Assembly (NCBI GenBank): GCA_030038445.1
Contig: JASHOW010000010.1
Coordinates: 1-32,239 of the forward strand
DNA: 32,239 nt
From: Nitrosopumilaceae archaeon
GTDB lineage: Archaea; Thermoproteota; Nitrososphaeria; Nitrososphaerales; Nitrosopumilaceae
Direction: 5' to 3'
Part shown: positions 1 through 15,382 of the stretch, piece by piece
Layout: the number at the start of each line of letters is the position of its first letter
Numbering within the stretch: position 1 is the stretch's first letter
Position numbers and translations under genes: made by a program
The notes under the pieces: model-generated
Seen by the model: only the letters and a program-made list of their open reading frames with translations
Database searches by the model: none
What the model was told of the DNA's origin: nothing

Positions 1-35
1 AAAGACACTTATTCTGGGATTTTAATTTTCACGTT

Positions 36-120
36 GCGGGGGTCGCCTAGCCTGGTCAACGGCGTAAGGCTCAGAACCTTATCTCTTAGGAGTTCGTGGG
101 TTCAAATCCCACCTCCCGCA
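36..120 (+). tRNA. tRNA-Leu (anticodon CAG)
   Basis: Acceptor GCGGGGG pairs with CTCCCGC; anticodon stem TAAGG/CCTTA with loop CTCAGAA (anticodon CAG); long class II variable arm; T arm GTGGG-TTCAAAT-CCCAC; no encoded CCA. Confidence 0.95.
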
Positions 121-219
121 TTACAAATCTTTAAGATCAACAAAATCTACGTTTCGTTACCAGTTATCTACTTCAAAAGGCTAGTTAGTCTGTAACATTA
201 GACAATAACTTGACACGCT

Positions 220-7192: not shown

Positions 7193-7514
7193 AGAGGTAG
7201 TAGCTCTGCTAGTTCCAGTCTAAACAGACGGCCTCGTCTCAAGTCAAGCAAGATCCGCCACGTAGACGAAGTAGCGTGGATGCTCTACCTTAGGATTGCT
7301 CCCTCCCGGACCTCATCCCTTTCGGCAGTTAGAACTTGAGAGCCATCCCTTCGGACAGTCTCGGTCCTGCATCCACCCGCTTCGGCGTGATTTCATCTCC
7401 GCAAGTCAAGTGAGTATCATCCATCTAGAGATTTACCCAGCAGTTACTGACCCCTGCATATAGCCGGTTTCAGAGGCAGGGCACGGCTAGCGCCCCGATC
7501 TTCCCTACTACCAT
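7193..7514 (-). ncRNA. ffs: Signal recognition particle RNA (archaeal 7S RNA)
   Basis: Minus strand contains the helix 8 signature GAGGTCCGGGAGGGAGCAATCCTAAGG and the 5'-domain signature CCGTGCCCTGCCTCTGAAACCGGCTATATGCAGGGGTCAG; ends pair (GGTAGTAG with CTACTACC). Ends approximate. Confidence 0.93.
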
Positions 7515-7544: not shown

Positions 7545-8333
7545 TTAGGGTCGTCCCAGTCCCAAATTAAATAATGTCTTGCATACGGAGCACGTATCAC
7601 CTGTACAGTCTGATCCGCATTTTGAGCATCTTTTCCATACCTTATCTGTTTTGTCTTTAAATTCAGAAGAAATTTTCAAAATTGATTTGTACATGTTGTT
7701 CTTGATTCCACTATGATTCTTTTCCAATGCATTGAGAAAATTGCGTATTTCGGTTCTAATTCCCTCATTCATGTGAGGACATTCTTCTGATTGGAACGGG
7801 ATGTTATTTGCAAAGGCATAGAAGACAATCTCATTTTCGTAAATCTCACAAAATGGCTTTATCCTTCTTGCTTTGTTGTCTGTAGTCTCTGGATCCATCC
7901 AGCTTATCTTGTTTGTGTCACCTGAAAGAAGATTGATGATAAAAGTCTGAATAAAATCATCTAGATTATGGCCTGTTGCAACTCTGTCCACCCCAAATTC
8001 TCTTGCGCCAAAATCAATGGCTCGTCTTCTTAGTATGCCACATATGGAACAAGATGATATCTTTTCCTCTTCTCTTATCTTAAGAGATTGTTCTAAAGTC
8101 GAGCCAAAAAGTTCCTTATATGAATAAACTGCATGTTCCACTTTGATCTTGTTACAAAAGTCGCTTACAATTTCCAGTGCTTCATCTCTATATCCAGGAA
8201 TTCCCTCATCAATCGTAATGGCTTGAAGCGTAAAGTTGTGACTCAACGAGATTTGCTTTAATATATGTAGAAGAGATAGTGAATCCTTACCACCAGAAAC
8301 GGCAACACCTATTGCATCTCCGGGGTGAATCAT
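7545..8333 (-). CDS. tRNA 2-thiolation ATPase, TtuA/Ctu1 (TtcA-like) family; N-terminus probably extends upstream
   Basis: GVAVSGGKDSLSLLHIL PP-loop; central CSICGILRRRAI; C-terminal RCSKCGSDCTGDTCSVC zinc ribbon; ends GLGRP. In-frame sequence to about 8480 encodes an additional CDYC...CPGC zinc ribbon. Confidence 0.88.
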   Translation of the reverse strand: MIHPGDAIGVAVSGGKDSLSLLHILKQISLSHNFTLQAITIDEGIPGYRDEALEIVSDFCNKIKVEHAVYSYKELFGSTLEQSLKIREEEKISSCSICGILRRRAIDFGAREFGVDRVATGHNLDDFIQTFIINLLSGDTNKISWMDPETTDNKARRIKPFCEIYENEIVFYAFANNIPFQSEECPHMNEGIRTEIRNFLNALEKNHSGIKNNMYKSILKISSEFKDKTDKVWKRCSKCGSDCTGDTCSVCKTLFNLGLGRP

Positions 8334-8499
8334 CTTGTATTTTGATATGGTCTTTATCGTTTTGTGTATGATGGATTTTGAAAAACAACCAGGACAAAGG
8401 TTTTCTCCAGAATATTTTCTGGAATATGCTACGGTATTTTCACAATAATCGCATTTCGTGAACTTTTCACTCCTTTGGTTTCATATTTGGCAAGCCCTT

Positions 8500-13702: not shown

Positions 13703-15382
13703 ATGCCAATAACAAGCATGGAACTAATTCAGATATCTAATCTAAAGACTCCAACTCTGGGTAAAAGGTCTACTATAAGATTTACACAAAGCATATGTCC
13801 AGACTGCAATATGATACTTGACGCCGAAGTCTTTGAAAGGGACGGTAAGGTCTTCATGACAAAGACCTGCCCTACACACGGAGAATGTGAGGAATTGTAC
13901 TTTGGCTCATATGAAATGTACAGAAAGTTTAGCACCTATTGGATGGATGGAAAGGGTGCCCATGCTCCTAATGTAATGATTGACAAGTGTTCTTGTCCAA
14001 ACAACTGTGGATTGTGCTCTAACCACCTTTCGCACAGTGGACTTGCAAACATGATAGTTACAAACAGGTGTGATCTCACGTGTTGGTACTGCTTTTTCTA
14101 TGTAAAGAAGGGACTTGAAGGTGCATACATGTACGAGCCAACACAAGATCAGGTAAGAGCAATGATGAAGACTCTCAAGGCAGAGAGGCCAATTCCAGGA
14201 AACTCTATGCAGATTACTGGAGGAGAACCAATGCTAAGAGAAGACATTACAGATGTTATCAAAATAATGAAAGAGGAAGGAGTGGATCATATCCAAATGA
14301 ACACAAATGGAATCCGATTTGCTCTGGATCCAGAAGCAATGCGAGAGGTACGACTTGCTGGCGTAAATAATCTCTATCTTAGCTTTGACGGCGTAACCCC
14401 AAGAACAAATCCCAAGAATCACTGGGAGATTCCATATGCACTAGAGAGTGCAAGAAAGACAGGAACCACTGTTGTCTTTGTACCTACAGTTATCAAATCA
14501 ATTAATGATCACGAGCTAGGCGGAATAATTCGATATGCACAAAAGAATCTTGATGTTGTGCACGCAGTAAACTTCCAACCAGTCTCACTGACAGGAAGAA
14601 TGGGCAAGAAGGAACGTGAAAAATACAGAATTACAATACCAGACTGCATACAAAGAATTGAGGAACAAACAGGTGCCGAGGTAACAGTGGATGACTGGTT
14701 CCCAGTACCAAGCTGTATGCCACTAACAAATGTCATTGAGGCATTCTCAAGCAAGCCAAAATACGAATTATCGATTCACTTTGCATGTGGCGCTGGAACA
14801 TACATCTTTGAGGATCAAGAAACCAAAAAGTTTGTACCTCTAACTAAATTTGCAGATATTCAAGGAATGCTAGAGCTCTTCGAAGACAAGGCAGAAGAGA
14901 TTCGCTCTGGCAAGAACAAGTACTTTACAATGTTAGAAGTTGTAAGAAAACTTTCTAGCTTTGTTGATAAGAAGAAACAACCAGCGGGTCTTGACTTGGC
15001 AAAGATGTTTGGTAACATATTGATGAAAAGATCATTTGACGCAGTTGGCTCATGGCATGTCAAAGGACTCTTCTTGGGCATGATGCACTTCCAAGACAAG
15101 TACAACGAAGACTTGGAAAGACTGCAGAGATGTGATATTCACTATGTAACACCAGATCTTAGAATCATTCCATTCTGTGCATTCAATGTAATTCCAGAAT
15201 GGTACAGAGACAGAATCCAAAAGAAATACTCCACAACAGTAGAGGAATGGGAACAGAGGGTAGGCGTAAAGCTAGAGGATGGTCTCTATAGGGGAATAAT
15301 GAGAAGAGGTGCTGGTGATGAGCTTGCTGCAGGATGTGCAAAGAGCCAGATGTTCCACGAAGCATCTCAAGCATTGATGTAA
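13703..15382 (+). CDS. tes: Radical SAM protein of the MJ0619/Tes type (candidate tetraether lipid synthase)
   Basis: 559 aa; CDLTCWYC radical SAM motif, MQITGGEPMLRED; N-terminal CPDC/CPTHG and CSCPNNCGLC clusters; overall architecture like MJ0619/Tes. Confidence 0.8.
   Translation: MPITSMELIQISNLKTPTLGKRSTIRFTQSICPDCNMILDAEVFERDGKVFMTKTCPTHGECEELYFGSYEMYRKFSTYWMDGKGAHAPNVMIDKCSCPNNCGLCSNHLSHSGLANMIVTNRCDLTCWYCFFYVKKGLEGAYMYEPTQDQVRAMMKTLKAERPIPGNSMQITGGEPMLREDITDVIKIMKEEGVDHIQMNTNGIRFALDPEAMREVRLAGVNNLYLSFDGVTPRTNPKNHWEIPYALESARKTGTTVVFVPTVIKSINDHELGGIIRYAQKNLDVVHAVNFQPVSLTGRMGKKEREKYRITIPDCIQRIEEQTGAEVTVDDWFPVPSCMPLTNVIEAFSSKPKYELSIHFACGAGTYIFEDQETKKFVPLTKFADIQGMLELFEDKAEEIRSGKNKYFTMLEVVRKLSSFVDKKKQPAGLDLAKMFGNILMKRSFDAVGSWHVKGLFLGMMHFQDKYNEDLERLQRCDIHYVTPDLRIIPFCAFNVIPEWYRDRIQKKYSTTVEEWEQRVGVKLEDGLYRGIMRRGAGDELAAGCAKSQMFHEASQALM

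Follow-up and report, generated by a model that had tools for sequence, protein, structure and literature searches.

Gene finders accept ATG, GTG and TTG as start codons; applied to one TtuA-like gene in the window (the whole stretch of DNA analysed here, 32,239 nucleotides from an uncultured Nitrosotalea-type archaeon), this rule would remove a metal-binding domain from a core tRNA enzyme. Where, then, does translation of this gene begin? The original prediction held that an N-terminal CxxC...CxxC ribbon is encoded upstream of the first in-frame ATG without a standard start codon, and offered four options: a non-standard ACG start, a programmed +1 frameshift, a mutation, or a sequencing indel. 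On the minus strand, the frame leaves a TGA at 8483-8481, runs through NQRSEKF to an ACG at 8459-8457, continues with KCDYCENTVAYSRKYSGENLCPGCFSKSIIHKTIKTISKYK to an ATG at 8333 and ends at the stop codon 7547-7545. Around the ACG the minus-strand letters are TGA AAC CAA AGG AGT GAA AAG TTC ACG AAA TGC GAT TAT TGT (plus-strand letters 8457-8459 being CGT). Reading this frame bears out the predicted coordinates: from the TGA down to 8333 the number of ATG, GTG and TTG codons is zero, the ACG stands directly before KCDYC at 8459, and the ATG at 8484 yields MKPKE and then TGA. The elements of the locus are as follows.

7545..8459, minus strand: gene for a tRNA thiolase of the TtuA/NcsA family; 304 residues and a stop when reading begins at the ACG
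8457..8459, minus strand: ACG codon in place of the relatives' ATG start; the altered base is 8458
8382..8456, minus strand: N-terminal zinc-ribbon segment, residues 2-26, with C3, C6, C22 and C25 (TtuA_LIM_N 24.1 bits, just below the 27-bit cut-off)
8466..8473, minus strand: Shine-Dalgarno sequence AGGAGTGA (one bulge when paired with the assumed anti-Shine-Dalgarno), ending 7 nt 5' of the ACG
8482..8489, minus strand: putative TATA-like sequence CAAATATG, at -30 to -23 from the ACG, holding the ATG of the MKPKE mini-ORF (assigned from its spacing and the genome-wide A+T peak)
8331..8333, minus strand: first in-frame ATG, codon 43, without a Shine-Dalgarno sequence; its product would be ribbonless

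A tRNA thiolase with a ribbon at each end

The 304-residue product matches NcsA of Methanococcus maripaludis (PDB 6scy) over residues 2-301 (E 6e-46) and TtuA PH0300 (E 9e-38), in both cases along nearly the whole length. It carries the PP-loop motif SGGKDS (translated as SGGKDSL; Pfam ATP_bind_3 68.6 bits, cut-off 27), three cysteines in putative Fe-S positions (C137, C140 and C227, aligned with those of 6scy), and a C-terminal ribbon/TIGR00269 region (85.3 bits against 62.75; C278, C281, C290 and C293). The PP-loop, the three cysteines and both end ribbons are common to this protein and to the structures of the NcsA/Ncs6 (Ctu1-type) U34-tRNA thiolase (6scy) and of TtuA from Pyrococcus and Thermus (3vrh, 5mko, 5b4e), to which it is similar over its whole length; zinc fingers at both ends have been described for NcsA/TtuA-type proteins (PMC10067955). 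By sequence, the gene predicted to be TtuA-like is a tRNA thiolase of the TtuA/NcsA (Ncs6, Ctu1) family. It departs from the known NcsA and TtuA systems in its ACG start codon and in that its product falls under both NCBIfam equivalog cut-offs (178.6 of 450 for the TtuA model, 177.4 of 500 for the NcsA model); it is therefore assigned to the family, with no choice of tRNA position. The predicted N-terminal ribbon (C3, C6, C22, C25) is indeed present, and since its codons lie upstream of 8333, it is part of the protein only if translation begins at or near the ACG.

The gene occurs once in this genome. Of the relatives with a completeness of 90% or more and a contamination of 5% or less, 36 of 36 carry it. 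Directly 3' of it, on the same strand, lies an archaeal SRP RNA gene (7198-7510, minus strand), and a gene for an M50/PDZ site-2-type protease, likewise on this strand, ends 41 nt upstream.

The ACG occupies the start column of the relatives

The nearest named records belong to Candidatus Nitrosotalea and other Nitrosopumilaceae/Thaumarchaeota bins, which places the window in that group. All 29 same-genus orthologs taken from whole genomes have ATG in the ACG column, followed by the ribbon. A class-wide pattern in which ATG or ACG was allowed matches 87 genomes, including a 30th same-genus ortholog with ATG, read by pattern (G036); 86 have ATG and one, that of the window, has ACG, so that none of these 87 provides a second genome with ACG at the thiolase start. 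Named genome records, which largely overlap the 29, agree on ATG, and three Nitrosotenuis-type records have GTG. Residues 2-304 are 72-84% identical to the orthologs along their length, a match beyond chance, and Met43, encoded by the ATG at 8333, is conserved among the relatives. Upstream of the ACG column the sequence is not conserved as coding in the relatives, and none of the orthologs has an extension. The ACG thus stands at a conserved start position, ahead of an intact coding region that offers no alternative start. The ubiquity of ATG in the relatives fits a base error and a real substitution alike and does not discriminate between them: the ACG is either a rare natural instance of an unusual start, or reflects a mutation or one-base error in a single draft genome.

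The ribbon itself, as far as its sequence can tell, is without sign of decay. Of the sites that are invariant in ten close relatives, 60 lie in the ribbon and 376 elsewhere in the gene; the window departs from them at 2 and 5 sites, respectively. Of the two ribbon-site changes, one is silent and the other is R32H, histidine at position 32 occurring in other relatives as well. Hence either translation still includes the ribbon, or the change happened very recently or is not real.

ACG as a probable weak start codon

We consider it more probable than not that the substitution is real and that the full-length protein is made from the ACG at reduced efficiency. In such a mechanism, one T-to-C change in this lineage would have turned the ATG start codon of a single-copy core thiolase gene into ACG; the Shine-Dalgarno sequence would set the ACG in the ribosomal P site, where the initiator tRNA-Met would match it at two of three positions; and the full-length protein, including the N-terminal ribbon, would be produced at lower yield. 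We infer that the cell really has this base, that the ACG initiates and does so with methionine, and that enough protein results. Speaking for the use of ACG are its exact coincidence with the ATG column, the intact ribbon, the Shine-Dalgarno sequence and the lack of another start, the single-copy and universal nature of the gene, the absence of broken genes from the portion of the assembly that was compared, and two further genes discussed below, hemA with CTG in the genus and an ACG gene in a relative; speaking against it are its occurrence in one draft genome only, the invariable ATG in the thiolase gene of the closest relatives and, as set out below, the poor showing of ACG in E. coli reporters, its absence from the reviewed archaeal starts, a Shine-Dalgarno sequence that is nothing out of the ordinary, and an mRNA that may be leaderless and so lack it.

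Among 104 ATG starts assigned with confidence in this genome, 96% have a weaker pairing energy than AGGAGTGA, as computed against the usual archaeal anti-Shine-Dalgarno, which is assumed, the 16S 3' end being absent from the genome DNA examined. Its distance to the ACG (7 nt) is comparable to that seen for the CTG of hemA (6 nt) and for a probable ATT start (6-7 nt). Across the orthologs of the relatives, Shine-Dalgarno sequences range from weak to stronger than that of the window; AGGAGTGA thus permits, but does not prove, the use of ACG. An unusually strong Shine-Dalgarno sequence as a specific compensation for the ACG was considered and rejected, as several relatives with ATG have a stronger one.

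Genome-wide, A+T content has its maximum between -30 and -24 relative to the start, which suggests that many mRNAs of this genome are leaderless or have short leaders. The window has CAAATATG at the matching spacing, which suggests the same for the thiolase mRNA; if leaderless, it would leave the Shine-Dalgarno sequence outside. Alternatively, the Shine-Dalgarno sequence may be carried on a leader, for example on a transcript joint with the upstream protease gene.

Four bases past the start codon there is an out-of-frame ATG (8441-8455, minus strand; ATGCGATTATTGTGA), which opens a four-codon frame, MRLL; the overlap, ATGAAATG, is also found in most relatives. If ACG is the start, the ATG at 8455 could compete with it for initiation.

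Archaeal starts have been reviewed as AUG, GUG and UUG only (PMC7531240), and a search of the literature for archaeal ACG starts returned nothing relevant. In E. coli reporters, ACG is a poor start, in the range of 0.1-1.5% of ATG (PMC6925171). Near-cognate initiation in eukaryotes extends to CUG, ACG and AUU, with ACG among the starts tested in yeast reporters (PMC11706245); there, too, ACG differs from AUG by its middle base, and archaea share initiation factors of the eIF1/eIF2 type. Unlike eukaryotes, archaea do not scan, and the ACG of the window, where initiation is predicted, has a Shine-Dalgarno sequence and would be the only start in frame for a core gene.

Other probable near-cognate starts

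The scan of start codons set 839 kb of the 1.49-Mb genome beside 1.2 Mb from a single relative (G034), yielding 529 ortholog pairs once shadow ORFs had been removed. Clear losses of a conserved start without a substitute are few: the thiolase gene here, and a short-chain dehydrogenase gene in the relative (G034:C24:1051778, minus strand). The latter, found without searching for ACG, has ACG where this genome has ATG; its other same-genus orthologs, matched by pattern, have ATG or GTG at the start. It has a weak Shine-Dalgarno sequence, with TTTTTTAA about 28 nt upstream, and its mRNA is possibly leaderless.

The hemA gene (glutamyl-tRNA reductase; L067:8318, G000:C5:8318-9571, plus strand) has CTG at its start in this genome. 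At least 11 species of the genus share this codon, and 9 others have ATG there; pattern matching accounts for ten CTG genomes, this one included, and the nine with ATG, and G034 is the eleventh with CTG, by sequence. Because the open frame starts just two codons before the CTG in most of these genomes, and because here it overlaps the stop codon of the preceding gene as CTGA, 6 nt after AGGTGA, the CTG is almost certainly the hemA start. Like the thiolase ACG, in the same genus and genome, it is a near-cognate codon at a conserved start position, with a Shine-Dalgarno sequence upstream (6 nt away in the case of the CTG). It differs in occurring in at least 11 species, and so is not an error, whereas the ACG occurs in one genome; its mismatch lies in the first base, that of ACG in the middle base; and it overlaps an upstream stop. 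NCBI table 11 lists CTG as a start, but not ACG. The CTG of hemA across the genus is the firmest by-product of this analysis, firmer than the ACG.

In a GDP-mannose dehydratase-like gene (L139, G000:C78, minus strand, about 1580-1620), ATT follows GGTGA by 6-7 nt, both here and in G034, and is probably another near-cognate start; a pattern search of the relatives gave only a few matches for this start, and the ATT is known from two genomes. On the basis of the CTG of hemA and the probable ATT of the dehydratase, this group seems to make use of near-cognate initiation. As a tentative generalization, one that we would not yet bet on, Nitrosotalea-type archaea may begin translation of core genes at the near-cognate codons CTG, ATT and ACG; ACG would then be a natural start that mismatches in its middle base and is picked through the placing of the Shine-Dalgarno sequence or through a leaderless 5' end. 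Should core genes of the group truly begin with these codons, start choice in archaea is less strict than annotation assumes, and natural cases would be at hand for testing the control of start codons by aIF1 and aIF2.

Alternatives to initiation at ACG

The main rival to an ACG start is an error of base calling, assembly or strain mixture in the consensus at 8458, which would make the true codon ATG and the gene ordinary; we regard it as a real but distinctly less probable explanation. The change is a lone substitution in a single draft, metagenome-derived assembly (130 contigs, 89.7% complete), all relatives have ATG, and the rarity of such cases weighs little in one that was selected for its oddness. 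Against this, none of about 450 genes tested is broken by a stop or frameshift, which places the substitution error below 1.7e-4, and the number of start losses expected from error in 529 genes is 0.011 at a rate of 1e-5 and 0.11 at 1e-4. An assembly that is error-prone in general was rejected: there is no convincing broken gene, and the three or four survivors of the scan resemble shadow ORFs.

Less likely is a real and recent loss of the start, with the ribbon unmade and either a truncated enzyme produced from the ATG at 8333 or the gene being lost altogether. The ATG of codon 43 is in frame, the PP-loop and the Fe-S cysteines are encoded downstream of it, and its methionine is kept in the relatives; but it has no Shine-Dalgarno sequence, the out-of-frame ATG at 8455 would compete with it, the ribbon is undecayed here and retained in all orthologs, and the gene is single-copy and universal in good relatives.

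Although the ATG at 8484 and the GAG-TGA-A that follows are truly present, a programmed +1 frameshift from MKPKE into the ribbon frame, or an indel, is very improbable: orthologs all start at the ACG column, none with an upstream coding extension or a conserved segment in the other frame, the ribbon aligns free of gaps and the ACG column for column with the relatives' ATG, the ATG at 8484 falls within the AT-rich, promoter-like TATA stretch, and the single T-to-C change at 8458 accounts for the ACG, so that neither is needed. Ortholog alignment thus leaves two of the four options originally proposed, an ACG start and a mutation or base error, and removes the frameshift and the indel.

Elsewhere in the window, a radical SAM protein encoded at 13703-15382 (plus strand) scores well over the cut-off for the tetraether lipid synthase Tes, and a tRNA-Leu (CAG) gene lies at 35-121 (plus strand).
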